This document shows positions 3,151 to 21,909 of a stretch of 48,279 nucleotides of DNA, piece after piece. Source of the DNA: Nocardiopsis trehalosi NBRC 14201 (GTDB lineage Bacteria > Actinomycetota > Actinomycetes > Streptosporangiales > Streptosporangiaceae); NCBI RefSeq assembly GCF_001552555.1, contig NZ_BCRK01000024.1, positions 1 through 48,279 of the forward strand, given 5' to 3'. Both the position numbers and the translations under genes were made by a program. The stretch's first letter is position 1. Every line of letters starts with the position of its first letter. Below the pieces are notes generated by a model. The model was not told the DNA's origin. It saw only the letters and a list, made by a program, of their open reading frames with translations, and did no database searches.

Positions 3151-4362
3151 ATGCCCGCACCCGCCCCCTCGGCGCCGACCCGCCGGCGCCACCCCTTCCG
3201 CGTCCCGGCGGCGGTGGTCGCCGCCGCGCTGGCCGCCGTCGCCGCCCCGCCCGCCGCCGCCGACGCGGGCGGCCCCGACCCGGCGCCGCGCGCCGAGATC
3301 CAGCGGGCGCTCGACGCGGTGGTGGCCGCCGGCGCGCCGGGGGCCACCGCGCGGATCACCGACGAGAACGGCACCTGGACCGCCACCTCCGGGACCGCCG
3401 ACCTCGACACGGGCGCGCCCATGCCCGCCAACGGGGCGTTCCGCGCGGCCAGCGTGACCAAGAGCCTGGTGGCCACCGTGGTCCTGCAACTTGAGGACGA
3501 GGGCACGCTGGCGCTCGACGACCCCCTGGACGAGTTGCTGCCCGGGGCGCTCCCCGGCGGCGGCGACGTCACCGTCTACCAGCTCCTCACCCACACCGGC
3601 GGCCTGGCCGACTACATCGCGGACCCGCTGTTCCAGGACCCGGAGAACTACCTGCGGCGGGGCTTCACCCCCGAGGAGCTGGTGGAGATCGCCGCCCGGC
3701 AGGAGCCGCACGGCGCACCGGGCGAACTCGCCTACGCGAACGTCAACTACGTACTGCTGGGCATGGTCGTGGAGGAGCTGACCGGCGACACGCTGGGCGA
3801 CGCGCTCACCGACCGGGTGCTGGAACCAGCGGGCATGCACCGGTCCTACCTCCCGGTGCACGAGACCGGGCTGCGCGGCCGGCACGCCTCCGGCTACTAC
3901 CGCCTGGCCGGTCAGCAGGACCTCACCGAGGCCACCGAACTCGACCCGTCGTTCGCGTGGGCCGCCTACGGGCTCGTCTCCACGCCGAAGGACATCGAGC
4001 GCTTCTACCGCGCGCTGTGGGACGGCGACCTGCTGCCCGCCGCGAGCCTGGCGCGGATGCGCGAGATGGTGCCGGGGCCCGACTTCTTCGTGTCCGGCTA
4101 CGGCCTGGGCCTGGAGCGGATGGACCTCACCTGCACGCGCCCGGAGGGCCACACCGGCAGCATGCCCGGCTTCTCCACCTTCGCGTTCCTCACCCCCGAC
4201 GGCGAACGGCAGGTGACCATCTCGATCAACGCGTTCCTGCTGGACGCCTCGGCCACGCCGATGATCCTGGCGGCGCTGGACGTGCTCAACCTGGAGTTCT
4301 GCGGCGAGCCGTTCACCTTCCCCCAGGGGGCCGAGCGGGCCGCGCCGCGCGTGCTGGCCTGA
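3151..4362 (+). CDS. secreted serine hydrolase, beta-lactamase class C/D,D-peptidase family
   Basis: The 403-aa protein has a signal peptide (RRRHPFRV then an Ala-rich core ending AAPPAAADA). Catalytic motifs of the class C serine beta-lactamase/DD-peptidase fold are visible: SVTKSLVA (S-x-x-K, about residue 95), YANVNY (Y-x-N, about 195) and HTGSMPG (HTG, about 335). These are the nucleophile, general base and substrate-binding triads. It may act on peptidoglycan stem peptides or small esters; true beta-lactamase activity cannot be claimed. The ATG at 3151 follows GAGGAG. It ends at a bidirectional hairpin. Confidence 0.85.
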   Translation: MPAPAPSAPTRRRHPFRVPAAVVAAALAAVAAPPAAADAGGPDPAPRAEIQRALDAVVAAGAPGATARITDENGTWTATSGTADLDTGAPMPANGAFRAASVTKSLVATVVLQLEDEGTLALDDPLDELLPGALPGGGDVTVYQLLTHTGGLADYIADPLFQDPENYLRRGFTPEELVEIAARQEPHGAPGELAYANVNYVLLGMVVEELTGDTLGDALTDRVLEPAGMHRSYLPVHETGLRGRHASGYYRLAGQQDLTEATELDPSFAWAAYGLVSTPKDIERFYRALWDGDLLPAASLARMREMVPGPDFFVSGYGLGLERMDLTCTRPEGHTGSMPGFSTFAFLTPDGERQVTISINAFLLDASATPMILAALDVLNLEFCGEPFTFPQGAERAAPRVLA

Positions 4363-9939: not shown

Positions 9940-10170
9940 ATGGCCATGACTCTGACGACCGACGTGAGCGTCGACGACCGCGTGGCGGTCCACGACCTCA
10001 TCTCCACGGGCGAGATCCGCGACATGCCGCAGTTCGCCGCGCCCCACGGCCTGGCGCTGCTGCTCCTCGCGGCCGCCGCCCTGCTGTCCACCGACCCCGA
10101 CGGCGGCGAGCCCGTCGAGGACACCGACGACGGCGTCGTGCAGAACCTGGCCGTCGCCCGCGCCTTCTGA
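9940..10170 (+). CDS. small peptide of unknown function heading an operon, 76 aa
   Basis: The ATG at 9940 has AGGGGTG 7 bases upstream. The peptide has an acidic, leader-like N-terminal half (TDVSVDDRVAVHDLISTGEI), a central hydrophobic stretch HGLALLLLAAAALLST and an acidic end DGGEPVEDTDDGVVQNLAVARAF. It has no cysteine and only a few Ser/Thr. It could be a small membrane peptide or a modified-peptide precursor; there is no recognised modifying enzyme next to it, so this is speculation. The next gene starts 15 bases downstream. Confidence 0.6.
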   Translation: MAMTLTTDVSVDDRVAVHDLISTGEIRDMPQFAAPHGLALLLLAAAALLSTDPDGGEPVEDTDDGVVQNLAVARAF

Positions 10171-10185
10171 CGGAGCACCGCCACC

Positions 10186-10920
10186 ATGCTGACCTCATCG
10201 CCGCGGGCCCGGTTCGAGGCCGCCACCGATGTTCTGGCGGCCGACCTGGCCCGAGCACTGACGGAGACCGGACGCCCGTTCTCGCTGGAACGGCACGTCG
10301 TCGCCATCGACGACTCCGGCAGCGGCCTCGGGGCCGTCCGCGTCCTGGGAGCGGACGTCCTGACCCCGTTCCTGCTGACCGGCCGGTCTCCCGACGACGA
10401 TGACGTCGCGGTGGTCCGGGCGGCGGTGCGGGCGTTCCCCGCACCGCCGTCCGCGCCCGCCGTCGACCCCGTCTGGTCGGCCCGCGACTGGGCGCTGAGC
10501 CGCGCCCTGGTCCGCTGCGGCGCCGATCCCACCGGCTGGGAGGGGCTCACGCCCGATCCCGCCGACCCCGGCCCCGAAGCGGCCCCCGACCCCGACGGCC
10601 GCGGCGCCGCGCCCTGGCCCGGCTGCTCGGTCGCCCTCGCCCGCCTCGCGTCGCTGGCCCTGCCCGGCCTCGACGGCCCCACCCGCACCACCGCCCGCAC
10701 CCGGCGCGACGACGCCGCGCGCGGCATGGCCCGCTCGCTGCTGCGCCGCGACCACCTCACGGCGGCCCGGCTCGCCCGCTGGCTGGCCCTGGACGACTCC
10801 GCGGCCCCCGAGCCGCTGCTGGAGTCGGCGGTCGCCCACCTCGAACTCCTCGGCGTCGGCGAACCCCGCACGGCGCTGGAACTGTCGATCACCCGCCGCA
10901 TCATGGAACCGGAGCGCTGA
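10186..10920 (+). CDS. 244-aa protein of unknown function
   Basis: I do not recognise this family. The N-terminal part (residues 1-70) is helical then beta (RHVVAIDDSGSGLGAVRVLG). A Pro/Asp/Ala-rich linker (about 120-145) leads to an Arg/Ala-rich helical C-terminus with DAARGMARSLLRRDHLTAARLARWLALDD. No signal peptide or membrane segment. Its stop overlaps the next start by one base (TGATG at 10918-10922), so it is translated together with the DUF6895-like protein and probably works with it. Confidence 0.75.
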   Translation: MLTSSPRARFEAATDVLAADLARALTETGRPFSLERHVVAIDDSGSGLGAVRVLGADVLTPFLLTGRSPDDDDVAVVRAAVRAFPAPPSAPAVDPVWSARDWALSRALVRCGADPTGWEGLTPDPADPGPEAAPDPDGRGAAPWPGCSVALARLASLALPGLDGPTRTTARTRRDDAARGMARSLLRRDHLTAARLARWLALDDSAAPEPLLESAVAHLELLGVGEPRTALELSITRRIMEPER

Positions 10921-11849
10921 TGGACGCCGCCACCATCTCGCTGGCCCACCAGGTCAGCGACAACGCCCTCGACTGGATCGGCAGCGTCCGGTCGTTCTTC
11001 GCGCTCGACCACGACGTGCCGCCGTGGCAGATCGACGGCGACGGGCTCAAGTCCCTCAGCGAACTCGCGCTCGCCGTCGGGCTCATCCGCCGCGAGGCCG
11101 TCACCGGACCGCGCGGCTCCGACACCGCCGACGCCCTCGCCGAGTTCGCCTGGCGCGAGTTCCACGAGGGCGACCTGCTCTACACGCTCCAGCGCCACAC
11201 CCCGGCGGCCACGCACCCGTTGGAGATCTACTCGTTCTTCGCGGCCGGCGGCCACCGCCACCCCGACCTGGAGGAGCTGGTCGCCCACCTCGGCGCCACC
11301 CGCGCCTGGCGGGTCCCCGAGCAGGTGCCCAACCGGCGGCTCGCCGTGTGGGCCGCCACCCGCCGCGTCGGGCTGCCCGAGAACGACGACCCCCGCGCGC
11401 TGACCGCGCTCACCTGGCTCGGCGGGCGGCCCGAGCCGTGGATGCTCGACGCCAACAACGCCTACGGGGTCACGCACACCGTCTTCCACCTCACCGACTG
11501 GGGCGCCGAACCCGAGCGCATCCCCCAGGAGCTGGAGGACTACCTGCGGAAGTGGCTGCCCGTATGGGTCGACGTGTTCGACGAGACCCGGTTCTGGGAC
11601 CTGCTCGCCGAACTCCTCATCGTCGGGGTGTGCCTGCGCCGCCCGATGTTCTTCCCCGAGGTGTGGGAGCACCTGGCCGAGGCCCAGCAGGCCGACGGCA
11701 TGGTGCCCAACGGGGTCACCCGGCCGCACGAGGAGCCCGAGCGCGCCTTCGCCAACCACCACCACCCGACCCTGGTGGCGGTCATCGCCGCGACCCTCAC
11801 CGTGTCGCGCGCGCTCAGCCCCGCTCCGGCCGCGCCGGAACCGGTGTGA
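10920..11849 (+). CDS. DUF6895-like all-helical protein
   Basis: The 309-aa protein resembles the actinobacterial DUF6895 family in the pattern LDANNAYGVTHTVFHLTDWG (about residue 175) followed by LRKWLPVWVDVFDETRFWDLLAELL. It is rich in Trp, His and Leu and looks like a helical-repeat (alpha/alpha toroid-like) protein without signal peptide. His triplets (FANHHHPT) and the conserved acidic/aromatic positions could form an active site. Function is unknown. The start overlaps the upstream stop and the stop overlaps the next start (GTGTGA at 11844-11849), so three genes form one translational unit. Confidence 0.75.
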   Translation: MDAATISLAHQVSDNALDWIGSVRSFFALDHDVPPWQIDGDGLKSLSELALAVGLIRREAVTGPRGSDTADALAEFAWREFHEGDLLYTLQRHTPAATHPLEIYSFFAAGGHRHPDLEELVAHLGATRAWRVPEQVPNRRLAVWAATRRVGLPENDDPRALTALTWLGGRPEPWMLDANNAYGVTHTVFHLTDWGAEPERIPQELEDYLRKWLPVWVDVFDETRFWDLLAELLIVGVCLRRPMFFPEVWEHLAEAQQADGMVPNGVTRPHEEPERAFANHHHPTLVAVIAATLTVSRALSPAPAAPEPV

Positions 11850-12922
11850 CCGCCGCACCCGACGCGGGCCGGATGTCGGCGCTGCTCGACACCCACCTGC
11901 GTCCGCTCGTCGCCGACTCCGGCGTGCCGGGCGCCGCCGCCGCGGTCGTCCGCGGCGGCGACGCCGCCGTGCTGGCCGTCGGCCGCCGGCGGCGCGGCCG
12001 GCCCGAACCCGTCGACCCGCACACCCCGTTCGCCACCGGGTCGGTCACCAAGACCTTCACCGCCCTGCTGCTGGCCGAGGCCGCGGCGCGCGGCGAGGTC
12101 GGCCGGACCGACCCCTACCGCGACCACCTTCCGCCGTCCGCCCGGCCCCCGGCCGGCGTGGACGCGCCCACGCTGGACGACCTCGCCACGCACACGGCCG
12201 GGCTGCCGCGCGTCCCGCCCAACCTGTTCCCGCGCGCCGCCGCGCACTGGCTGTCCGACCCCTACGGCGGGTACGGACGCGACCGGCTGCTCCGCGCCGC
12301 CGCCCGCGCGCGGCCCCGCCGCGACCGCGCCGTGCCCCGTTACTCCACGTTCGGGGTGGGGCTGCTCGGCCAGCTCCTCGCCGACACCGCCGGCACCGAC
12401 TACCCGGTCCTGCTCGCCGAACGGGTCCTGCGCCCGCTGGGCATGGCCGACAGCGGCGCGGCGCCCGGGGCGGGCGACGCGCCGGAGGCCGCGTGCGGGC
12501 ACCGGCGGGGCCGCCCGGTGGCGCCGTGGCGGTTCGACGCCCTGGCCGGGGCGGGCGCCGTGTGGACCAGCGCCGCCGACATGCTCGCCTACCTGCGCGC
12601 CCACATCGACCCGGCGGGGGCCTCGCCGCCGCCGCTGGCCGACGCGCTGGCCGCCGTCGCCGAACCGCTCCGGCCGGCGGGCGGCCGGGCCGGCGCCAAG
12701 GGCACGTCGCTCGCGCTGGTGTGGAACCACCGCGTGGTGCGCGGCGAGACCCTGCTCTGGCACACCGGCGGCACCGGCGGGTTCACCGTCTACGCCGCGT
12801 TCAGCCCCACCGCGCGGGCGGGCGCCGCCATCCTCGGCAACGCCACCCCGACCCACCGCCAGCCGGTGGTCAACGCGGGGCGGCGGCTGTTCACGGCGGC
12901 CGTGTACGGCGACGACCGGTGA
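11846..12922 (+). CDS. serine hydrolase, beta-lactamase/D,D-peptidase fold, no signal peptide
   Basis: The 358-aa protein carries SVTKTFTALLLAEA (S-x-x-K, about residue 63), YSTFGVG in place of Y-x-N (about 168) and HTGGTGGFT (HTG, about 307). Unlike the serine hydrolase at 3151 it has no signal peptide, so it acts in the cytoplasm, which argues for a biosynthetic esterase/amidase/transacylase role on a small molecule or peptide. GTG at 11846 overlaps the upstream stop. The Thr in place of Asn in the second motif is common in esterase members. Confidence 0.85.
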   Translation: MTAAPDAGRMSALLDTHLRPLVADSGVPGAAAAVVRGGDAAVLAVGRRRRGRPEPVDPHTPFATGSVTKTFTALLLAEAAARGEVGRTDPYRDHLPPSARPPAGVDAPTLDDLATHTAGLPRVPPNLFPRAAAHWLSDPYGGYGRDRLLRAAARARPRRDRAVPRYSTFGVGLLGQLLADTAGTDYPVLLAERVLRPLGMADSGAAPGAGDAPEAACGHRRGRPVAPWRFDALAGAGAVWTSAADMLAYLRAHIDPAGASPPPLADALAAVAEPLRPAGGRAGAKGTSLALVWNHRVVRGETLLWHTGGTGGFTVYAAFSPTARAGAAILGNATPTHRQPVVNAGRRLFTAAVYGDDR

Positions 12923-12949
12923 ACCCCGCCCCGCCGCAGCGGGGTTCAC
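12919..12949 (+). terminator. hairpin overlapping the serine hydrolase stop codon
   Basis: GTGAACCCCGC pairs with GCGGGGTTCAC across a 9-base loop; the stem includes the TGA of the serine hydrolase gene. It probably ends the peptide operon or attenuates transcription into the metallo-hydrolase gene. Confidence 0.6.
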
Positions 12950-12983
12950 CGCCGCTGCCGCCGGGTAGCCGCCACCCGGTACC

Positions 12984-13008
12984 GGGCCGCGCCGCAGCGG
13001 CGCGGCCC
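12984..13008 (+). terminator. second hairpin before the metallo-hydrolase gene
   Basis: Ten-bp stem GGGCCGCGCC with loop GCAGC. With the hairpin at 12919 it suggests that the gene at 13035 is expressed at a different level from, or separately from, the operon upstream. Confidence 0.5.
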
Positions 13009-13034
13009 CCGGCCACCGCGCGGAAGGCGACCCC

Positions 13035-13847
13035 ATGGCGCAGCCCCACCACGACCCGCTCCGGCGGTCCGTCCGCTTCATCGGCAACGCGACCGTGATC
13101 CTGCGCTGGGACGACCTCACGGTCCTCACCGACCCCAACTTCCTGCACCGCGGCCAGTTCGCCTACCTCGGCAAAGGGCTGGTGTCGCGGCGGCGCACCG
13201 ACCCGGCGCTGCGGGTCGACGGGCTGCCCCGTCTCGACGCGGTCCTCCTGTCCCACCTGCACGGCGACCACTTCGACCGGGTGGCCCGGCGCGGCCTGGA
13301 CCACGGGCTGCCCGTCGTCACCACGCCGCAGGCCGCGCGGCGGCTGCGCCGGCACGGGTTCGGCGAGTCGGTCGGCCTCGATGTGTGGGGCGACTGGGGG
13401 CTGGCGGCCGGGTCCACCTGGATGCGGGTGCACGCGGTCCCCGGCCGGCACGGGCCGCGGCCGTTCCACCGGCTGCTGCCGCCCGTGATGGGCAGCGTCG
13501 TGGAGTTCGGGCCGACCGGCGGCGGCGCCGAGATCCGGATCTACGTCACCGGCGACACCGTCATGTTCGACGGCGTCCACGAGATCCCGCGCCGCCACCC
13601 CGGCATCGACCTCACCCTGGTCCACCTCGGCGGCACCACCCTGCCGGGCGGGGTCATGGTCACCATGGACGACCGCCAAGGCGTCGAGCTGGTGGAGGCC
13701 GTCGACCCGCGCACCGTCTCACCGATCCACTACGACGACTACGGGGTGTTCAGGTCCCCCTTGAGCGCGTTCACCGCGCGGCTGCGCCGCCACGGGCTCG
13801 GCGGCCGGCTCCGGCTGCTGGAGAAGGGCACCGCGATCCCGCTGTAG
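13035..13847 (+). CDS. metallo-beta-lactamase-fold hydrolase (UlaG/NAPE-PLD-like)
   Basis: The 270-aa protein has the MBL metal motif LLSHLHGDHFD (H-x-H-x-D-H) near residue 75, a further His in VPGRHG (about 139), Asp in YVTGDTVMF (about 178) and a final His in ISPIHYDDYG-like VSPIHYDDYG (about 235). An N-terminal RFIGNATVILRWDDLTVLTDPN is the start of the UlaG/NAPE-PLD group that cleaves phosphodiesters or lactones. No signal peptide. It follows the DUF6895-like operon after two hairpins; a functional link is possible but unproven. Confidence 0.85.
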   Translation: MAQPHHDPLRRSVRFIGNATVILRWDDLTVLTDPNFLHRGQFAYLGKGLVSRRRTDPALRVDGLPRLDAVLLSHLHGDHFDRVARRGLDHGLPVVTTPQAARRLRRHGFGESVGLDVWGDWGLAAGSTWMRVHAVPGRHGPRPFHRLLPPVMGSVVEFGPTGGGAEIRIYVTGDTVMFDGVHEIPRRHPGIDLTLVHLGGTTLPGGVMVTMDDRQGVELVEAVDPRTVSPIHYDDYGVFRSPLSAFTARLRRHGLGGRLRLLEKGTAIPL

Positions 13848-15080: not shown

Positions 15081-15371
15081 TCAGCCGGTGTAGTTCGGCT
15101 CGTCCGGCAGCGGGCGGGCGGGGGCCGCCACCGGCGGTTGGGCCTGCTCGGGCGGCGCCGCCTCACCGGGGGCATCCTCCTCCGGCGGCACTCCGACGCC
15201 CGGAGGGTCGGACGGCTGCGCGGTGGGCGGGTCGGCCGGGATGGACGGCTGGGGAGCGGGCTGCTCGGCCGCCGGGGGCGCCGGGACGTCGGTCTCGGCG
15301 AACGCGGGGGCCGCGCCGAACAGCGCGGCGGCCGCGACACCGGCGACCAGGAACAGGTTCTTCACTCGCAT
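15081..15371 (-). CDS. secreted Pro-rich peptide ending PNYTG (paralogue A)
   Basis: The 96-aa protein has a clear signal peptide (MRVKNLFLVAGVAAAALFGAA, cleavage after PAFA) and a mature part of about 70 residues rich in Pro, Ala and Glu, without cysteine. It shares its signal region, the start of the mature protein (VPAPPAAEQPAP) and the last residues EPNYTG/PNYTG with the next gene upstream at 15423. GAGAGG precedes the ATG. No enzymatic fold is expected; it may be an unfolded envelope peptide whose C-terminus is recognised. Confidence 0.75.
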   Translation of the reverse strand: MRVKNLFLVAGVAAAALFGAAPAFAETDVPAPPAAEQPAPQPSIPADPPTAQPSDPPGVGVPPEEDAPGEAAPPEQAQPPVAAPARPLPDEPNYTG

Positions 15372-15422: not shown

Positions 15423-15683
15423 TCAGCCGGTGTAGTTCGGCTCGACCGCCAGCGGGTCGGCCAGGCCGGCCTCCTCCAGGGCCTCCTGTTCGCGGGCGAT
15501 CTCCTCGTCGAGTCGCTCCTGCTCGGCTGCCTCATCGGCGGTGGGCGGGTCGGCCGGAGTTTCCGGGGCGGGCTGCTCGGCCGCCGGGGGCGCCGGGACC
15601 TCGCTCTCGGCGAACGCGGGGGCGGCGCCGAACAGGGCGGCGGCGCTGACGCCGGCCACGAGCAGCAGCTTCTTCAGGTTCAT
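15423..15683 (-). CDS. secreted Pro/Glu-rich peptide ending EPNYTG (paralogue B)
   Basis: The 86-aa protein has the signal MNLKKLLLVAGVSAAALFGAA...FA and the same VPAPPAAEQPAP segment and EPNYTG end as its neighbour at 15081, so the two arose by tandem duplication. Its middle is different: an acidic predicted helix or coiled coil (EAAEQERLDEEIAREQEALEEAG). GAAGGAA precedes the ATG. The conservation only at both ends suggests that the C-terminal hexapeptide matters. Confidence 0.75.
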   Translation of the reverse strand: MNLKKLLLVAGVSAAALFGAAPAFAESEVPAPPAAEQPAPETPADPPTADEAAEQERLDEEIAREQEALEEAGLADPLAVEPNYTG

Positions 15684-21512: not shown

Positions 21513-21689
21513 ATGTTGAGCAACGACTGGAAGAAGTCGTCCCGGTCCAACGCCGGAGGAGCCTGCGTCGAAGCCCGCAGCGACACGGCCCAGGTGTGGG
21601 TCCGGGACACGCAGAACCGCGAGGGGGCAACACTCGCCGTCCCGGCCCGGGAGTGGATCGCCCTCCTCAACGACCTCGACCACATGTGA
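21513..21689 (+). CDS. DUF397 protein, copy 1
   Basis: The 58-aa protein shows the DUF397 signature W-K-x-S-x-x-S at its start (DWKKSSRSNAGGACVEARSD) and VRDTQNREGATLAVPAREW later. DUF397 proteins act with the adjacent XRE/WhiJ-type regulator, probably as antitoxin-like or regulatory small partners. AGGAGTG precedes the ATG. Four bases separate it from the XRE stop, so they are cotranscribed. Confidence 0.9.
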   Translation: MLSNDWKKSSRSNAGGACVEARSDTAQVWVRDTQNREGATLAVPAREWIALLNDLDHM

Positions 21690-21735: not shown

Positions 21736-21909
21736 ATGACCGATAACTGGCATAAGTCCAGCTACAGCGACGGCAACGGCGGCCAGTGCGTCGAGGTGGC
21801 GGAGGGGCCGATCACGTCGGTTCGGGACACGAAGAACCGCGAAGCGGCCACGCTCGCCGTCCCGGCTCGGGAGTGGATCGCCCTCCTGAACGACCTCGAC
21901 CGGCTGTAG
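21736..21909 (+). CDS. DUF397 protein, copy 2
   Basis: The 57-aa protein (start ATG 21736, GGAGG 6 bases upstream) begins MTDNWHKSSYSDGNGGQCVE and ends with WIALLNDLDRL, nearly identical in its second half to copy 1 (VPAREWIALLNDLD), also at DNA level. It is a tandem duplicate of the gene at 21513 and completes the anti-sigma/XRE/DUF397 module. Confidence 0.9.
   Translation: MTDNWHKSSYSDGNGGQCVEVAEGPITSVRDTKNREAATLAVPAREWIALLNDLDRL

Follow-up and report, generated by a model that had tools for sequence, protein, structure and literature searches.

A widespread actinomycete gene cassette that probably encodes a ribosomal peptide precursor and its maturation proteins

Four genes on the forward strand of contig NZ_BCRK01000024.1 of Nocardiopsis trehalosi NBRC 14201 (positions 1 to 48,279, the whole 48,279-nt stretch analysed here and called the window) encode, in order, a 76-amino-acid (aa) peptide, a 244-aa protein (p244), a DUF6895 protein and a serine hydrolase of the S12 family (Table 1). 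The same genes recur in the same order in other actinomycetes, and it is highly probable, in our judgement, that they are the precursor and maturation genes of a ribosomally synthesized and post-translationally modified peptide (RiPP). We found no paper on this four-gene cassette, which is undescribed in the available literature.

A recurrent gene order

The DUF6895 family (PF21836) was searched for in 60 relatives and 394 genomes of the class, and the loci were then read; the DUF6895 protein of the window was also searched against public genome contigs, a scan that reached close relatives only. Sixty-two p244 loci were examined, 46 of which (L091-L130, L143-L148) had been picked by p244 alone. 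DUF6895 lies immediately 3' of p244 on the same strand in all 62 and is followed by S12 in 58 of them; since the p244-chosen loci give 46/46 and 42/46, respectively, the linkage does not stem from how the loci were picked, and the gene order is far beyond chance. The initial annotation had staked its proposal on the small open reading frame (ORF) being conserved with the operon and on the genes not scattering independently in relatives, and both expectations were borne out: the ORF stands 5' of p244 in 57/62 loci and the genes keep together. In L101 and L102 at most out-of-frame remnants of a precursor ORF could be made out, and none was found in L120, L147 and L148.

The four genes occur jointly in Nocardiopsaceae bacterium YIM 96095, Microtetraspora, Streptomyces hainanensis and others, and clustering of all called genes around 16 cassettes recovered these families without any other neighbour common to most. 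By a p244-only profile, p244 is present in 118/296 Streptomyces genomes, about 40% of the Streptomyces species sampled, and in 12/250 genomes of the window's own family.

All five ORFs of the initial annotation, which had counted an MBL hydrolase as the last member of the operon, are present, and the overlaps it had read as translational coupling are real: TGATG at 10918-10922 joins the p244 stop to the DUF6895 start, and within GTGTGA at 11844-11849 the GTG start of S12 overlaps the DUF6895 stop. Scans for sigma-70 promoters and simple terminators returned zero sites, which is unsurprising for a GC-rich genome; a hairpin starting at the stop codon of S12 escaped the terminator scan because it has no T-run. 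The region around it (12915-13034) folds with -77.4 kcal/mol (z -3.4), and the hairpin is likely the end of the cassette transcript.

Table 1. Features of the cassette and its 3' flank in the window
Feature	Position	Strand	Basis
Precursor peptide, 76 aa, MAMTLTTDVSVDDRVAVHDLISTGEIRDMPQFAAPHGLALLLLAAAALLSTDPDGGEPVEDTDDGVVQNLAVARAF	9940..10170	+	ORF; conserved 5' of p244 in 57/62 loci
Precursor leader-like part, residues 1-36, acidic	9940..10047	+	inferred from family alignments, boundary approximate
Precursor hydrophobic block GLALLLLAAAALLS, residues 37-50, proposed core	10048..10089	+	core identity inferred
Precursor proposed follower, residues 51-76, TDPDGGEPVEDTDDGVVQNLAVARAF	10090..10167	+	family-1 motif EP[VI]ED..GV.QNL.CA.AF
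p244, 244 aa, all-helical, no named family; proposed leader-binding partner of DUF6895	10186..10920	+	
DUF6895 protein, (alpha/alpha)6 toroid, proposed peptide epimerase	10920..11849	+	PF21836 E 1.4e-89
S12-family serine hydrolase, GTG start, proposed D-residue-specific follower-removing enzyme	11846..12922	+	PF00144 E 8.6e-50
Hairpin over and past S12 stop codon, likely transcript end	12917..12951	+	13-bp stem
MBL protein	13035-13847	+	PF12706 E 1.4e-19

Precursors and maturation proteins

Neither the 76-aa peptide nor p244 matched a named family above cut-off in Pfam and NCBIfam profile searches. The precursors fall into three families built on one plan, an acidic leader, a Leu/Ala-rich hydrophobic block and a hydrophilic tail. 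Family 1, which includes the window precursor, ends EPVED..GVxQNLxCAxAF, with V in the window follower where the other seven members have C; family 2 reads ..EAPxSDAPxYxPEAAG-(Leu block)-S-PKEPKxK and family 3 EPDGVFRDSREC-(Leu/Ala block)-S-PPTPRPKKG. The block is found in nearly all precursors, spans only about 8-18 residues, mostly ends LLS or LIS, and is interrupted by G/S/T in family 3. Within each family the leader and tail are conserved and the block is variable (the closely related L041 and L143 share AVQTLVHAGETAEAP and QNLACAR and differ in the block), and in each of the three families variation is greatest at the third codon position, a coding-like substitution pattern. Conserved ends around a variable block are typical of ribosomal-peptide precursors, and the leader and variable core of a RiPP precursor are found linked to candidate modifying enzymes in the 57 loci. 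The C-terminal conservation that the initial annotation proposed to check holds within each family and fails across families, which share instead the hydrophobic Leu/Ala block before a removable-looking tail. No convincing second precursor copy was found in the same genome.

Precursor type and gene content go together. Cassettes with S12 have a single DUF6895 gene in 31/31 cases when the precursor belongs to family 1 or 2, and two or more tandem copies in 24/24 cases when it belongs to family 3 (one copy is split in L115); the two counts cover all 55 S12-containing cassettes whose precursor can be read, and none breaks the match between DUF6895 copy number and precursor family. A named public example of family 3 lies on plasmid p1 of Streptomyces fungicidicus (NZ_CP023408.1, 504101-507956; L149:3148-7003), where the annotation lists a serine hydrolase and leaves the other four proteins hypothetical; its precursor, WP_040905375.1, ends LLLSPPAPRPKKG.

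The DUF6895 protein of the window matches PF21836 over the whole domain (300.7 bits against a cut-off of 23.8). Its model is all helical, with a predicted local distance difference test (pLDDT) score of 94.5, and aligned by VIA-align with squalene-hopene cyclase (Z 17.2, 3.5 A, 258 residues), GH105 enzymes (Z about 16) and cellobiose 2-epimerase (15.6), all above the helical background. We therefore regard it as a probable (alpha/alpha)6 toroid, an assignment that rests on VIA-align Z scores of 13-17; Foldseek alone gave no match to the model at E <= 0.001, and a PDB sequence search found nothing significant. We caution that likeness to a toroid need not imply a common function. Seven polar residues (E48, Y182, T185, H186, D227, E231 and H282) show little or no variation among the cassettes and among DUF6895 members from elsewhere; the window protein keeps all of them, and both tandem copies of family 3 keep the conserved polar residues.

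A DUF6895-family lasso-peptide epimerase, a 'distinct' enzyme according to the title of the work (Shi et al., ACS Catal. 2026, 16, 1757; cited in PMC13352647), contradicts, as far as that title goes, the statement of the initial annotation that no known RiPP enzyme is present. DUF6895 genes also occur in other peptide clusters, namely one lasso-like (L045), one with a radical SAM maturase (L043) and two with PatA/PatG and PatB (L147/L148; profile matches TIGR03895, E 8e-215, and TIGR04220, E 2e-13). Because a family member is reported as an epimerase and because DUF6895 appears in these peptide-modifying settings, epimerisation is the best available guess for the reaction in the cassette.

These other clusters have features of their own. 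In L045 (6466-11168) a lasso-like cyclase of the Asn-synthase type stands in a row with a PqqD-like protein and DUF6895, the last occupying the usual place of the lasso B2 peptidase, and a JmjC hydroxylase gene converges on them. L043 (5364-10916) has an S8 protease, a 42-aa peptide, the radical SAM maturase, DUF6895 and an MFS transporter. The near-identical clusters L147 (5665-10667) and L148 (5380-10406), from two genomes of the window's family, hold PatA/PatG, PatB, a 46-aa possible precursor (..SLWPVVPIPGVPFADENDE), an S8-p244 fusion and DUF6895, and possibly constitute a cyanobactin-like pathway to a D-residue-containing product.

The p244 model (pLDDT 89.5) is likewise all helical. For its fold, neither Foldseek nor VIA-align gave a match above the helical background (best Z 8.6, to complement C3d), and a PDB sequence search gave nothing significant. 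Its conserved residues are R52, D57, W144, R179, R183, R187, R188, D189, R198 and W199, an arginine-rich set, while the precursor leaders are acidic. In L147/L148 the S8 protease directly 5' of DUF6895 carries the C-terminal half of p244 as a fusion. From these arginines and this fusion we propose that p244 binds the precursor leader. A degenerate DUF6895 origin for p244 was rejected on profile comparison (probability 0.1%). Smaller helical partners also stand beside DUF6895 in L042 (7251-9013) and L151 (5362-7281), the latter a Bacillota (Pseudalkalibacillus) plasmid with a leader-like 86-aa ORF upstream. The L042 partner is a weak, half-length (degenerate) DUF6895 match related to the L151 partner; no sequence relation was found between p244 and such partner proteins.

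The S12 protein carries the motifs S66-V-T-K69, Y166-S-T and H306-T-G, and S66, K69, Y166 and H306 are conserved in 57-58 of the 58 S12 proteins. Its PDB profile matches are class C beta-lactamases; we take the HTG triad to be of the D,D-peptidase type (for example R61), as opposed to the KTG of beta-lactamases. No signal peptide is visible in the N-terminus (VTAAPDAGRMSALLDTHL) by inspection, no prediction program having been run, which agrees with the earlier description of a signal-less enzyme of the D,D-peptidase fold. A cell-wall role is thus unlikely, as the export signal that marks a cell-wall D,D-carboxypeptidase was not seen on inspection. The window protein has 358 aa, and all 16 S12 proteins scanned match PF00144 alone and therefore have no SurE-type lipocalin domain. 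The window encodes another S12-like serine hydrolase, about 403 aa long, at 3151-4362 (+); it clusters loosely with the cassette enzyme.

Two observations, though the loci without S12 are few, fit a role of S12 at the precursor tail. Wherever a cassette has S12 and its precursor can be read (55 cases), a tail follows the hydrophobic block. Among the loci devoid of S12, L145 has a precursor that ends at ...CVPLIILP, and L147/L148 have the PatA/PatG subtilisin-type maturation protease. Since a putative epimerase here adjoins an enzyme fold that reads D-residues, the arrangement suggests that a D-residue marks the S12 cut.

Proposed pathway and competing explanations

In the pathway that we propose, the small gene would supply the precursor, in which an acidic leader precedes a hydrophobic, Leu/Ala-rich core and the C-terminal part is the follower; p244 would recognize the leader and hand the peptide to DUF6895, which would convert at least one L-residue of the core, close to its LLS end, into the D-form. 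Cytosolic S12 would then read the D-residue and form an acyl-enzyme through Ser66, expelling the follower, and the acyl-enzyme would be either hydrolysed to a linear D-ended peptide or attacked by an amine to give a ring. The cassette has no genes for leader removal or export. We lean, by a narrow balance, towards epimerisation with D-dependent S12 processing as the chemistry of the cassette. The mode of release, like the biological role of the product, is conjectural: closure of a ring by S12 seems unlikely, and we would give a similarly low rating to the fuller proposal of a new RiPP class, in which the D-mark set by an epimerase is read by a stand-alone S12 enzyme that cuts the follower and makes a head-to-tail ring, as a ribosomal counterpart of the SurE-type cyclases.

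Known systems resemble parts of this scheme. MslH has a metallophosphatase-type fold, from which the all-helical toroid of DUF6895 is set apart by fold description only. Linaridins such as cypemycin and the salinipeptins are hydrophobic, D-residue-containing actinomycete RiPPs, but their enzymes differ from those of the cassette, with which no other gene family is conserved. Cyanobactin PatG removes a C-terminal follower and cyclises; its subtilisin fold is unrelated to S12, and in L147/L148 the PatA/PatG protease replaces S12 beside DUF6895 and the p244-domain fusion. MslH, from the pathway of the lasso peptide MS-271, performs metal-dependent C-alpha epimerisation of one residue in a ribosomal precursor (PMC10406935). 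The 2026 lasso epimerase belongs to the same Pfam family as the cassette protein and, as far as its title goes (PMC13352647), acts on a ribosomal peptide; the cassette differs in having no lasso cyclase and no B1/B2 and in its additional p244 and S12. The Asn-synthetase-like lasso cyclase and B proteins are absent from the window cassette and the conserved neighbourhood and were seen only in the separate locus L045. PBP-type thioesterases are related to penicillin-binding proteins and accept peptides with a C-terminal D-residue, which is obligate for SurE (natively D-Leu); these serine enzymes act in trans to release the D-ended peptide as a ring (PMC11735501). The cassette S12 lacks their C-terminal lipocalin-like domain, and no non-ribosomal peptide synthetase is linked to the cassette, no further gene family being common to most loci.

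Several observations weigh against the proposed pathway. The cassette has no known product or activity, and the neighbour clustering of 16 cassettes found no transporter, leader peptidase or recognized RiPP recognition element conserved with it; the PqqD-like element, which is frequent but not obligatory in RiPP pathways, had no Pfam or NCBIfam match among the cassette proteins of the window. The link to epimerisation comes from a title and concerns a 'distinct' family member, and the role of p244 is a guess from its arginines and the S8 fusion. The association of tail and S12 consists of one precursor (L145) and one PatG-type system in two genomes, and L146 also lacks S12 and has a precursor that is hard to interpret. 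Pairwise distances do correlate among the four cassette genes (0.65-0.81), which counts in favour of the pathway, but these values are uncorrected for species relatedness.

An alternative interpretation is that the cassette does make a RiPP but that DUF6895 performs other chemistry (for example dehydration, cyclisation or cleavage of the peptide) and that S12, instead of removing a follower, works as an esterase or transacylase. We consider this a real though doubtful possibility: the (alpha/alpha)6 fold hosts cyclases, GH105 hydrolases, AprG and cellobiose 2-epimerase, S12 enzymes are functionally diverse and the 2026 enzyme is titled distinct, but the invariant polar residues common to lasso-associated, radical-SAM-associated and cassette DUF6895 proteins suggest one reaction, and the S12 fold, known for D-specificity, is a partner that suits epimerisation well.

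S12 might instead be a self-protection or turnover enzyme that degrades a D-containing product in the cell rather than maturing it. D-aminopeptidases belong to the same superfamily, and S12, the last gene, has no visible signal peptide; we nevertheless think this improbable, because S12 keeps a strict order with the biosynthetic genes in 58/62 loci and is missing both where the precursor has no tail and from PatG-containing cassettes. Less probable still is that the small protein is a regulatory or membrane-associated enzyme subunit in an operon of housekeeping metabolism. Its hydrophobic block does resemble a short membrane segment and no export genes are present, but the block is short, and broken in family 3; the conservation of leader and tail around a varying block is the RiPP pattern; and a gene carried by only 40% of Streptomyces species argues against housekeeping.

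The five-gene operon of the initial annotation, with the MBL hydrolase as a tailoring enzyme, is scarcely tenable, and the MBL protein is ruled out as a cassette member: its gene follows S12 directly and in the same orientation, but it starts 112 nt 3' of S12, beyond the strong hairpin, adjoins none of the 61 other cassettes, and has one relative in L053 that lies about 5 kb from the cassette on the opposite strand. The broader proposal of a peptide-derived natural-product or signalling system survives as the best reading overall once its MBL part is dropped.

Other window features and significance

Elsewhere in the window, two tandem small secreted paralogues, P/A/E-rich and both ending PNYTG, are encoded at 15081-15371 and 15423-15683 (-), and tandem small DUF397-like proteins of 57-58 aa (W.KSS.S....CVE) at 21513-21689 and 21736-21909 (+).

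If the proposed pathway is true, the best-studied antibiotic producers make a widespread peptide product that has so far gone unseen, and the new DUF6895 epimerases have a second pathway setting. It would possibly also represent a ribosomal use of PBP-type cyclisation, useful for D-containing cyclic peptides. The four-gene system is common and unannotated; it is small and readily reconstituted, and the proposal can be tested directly.

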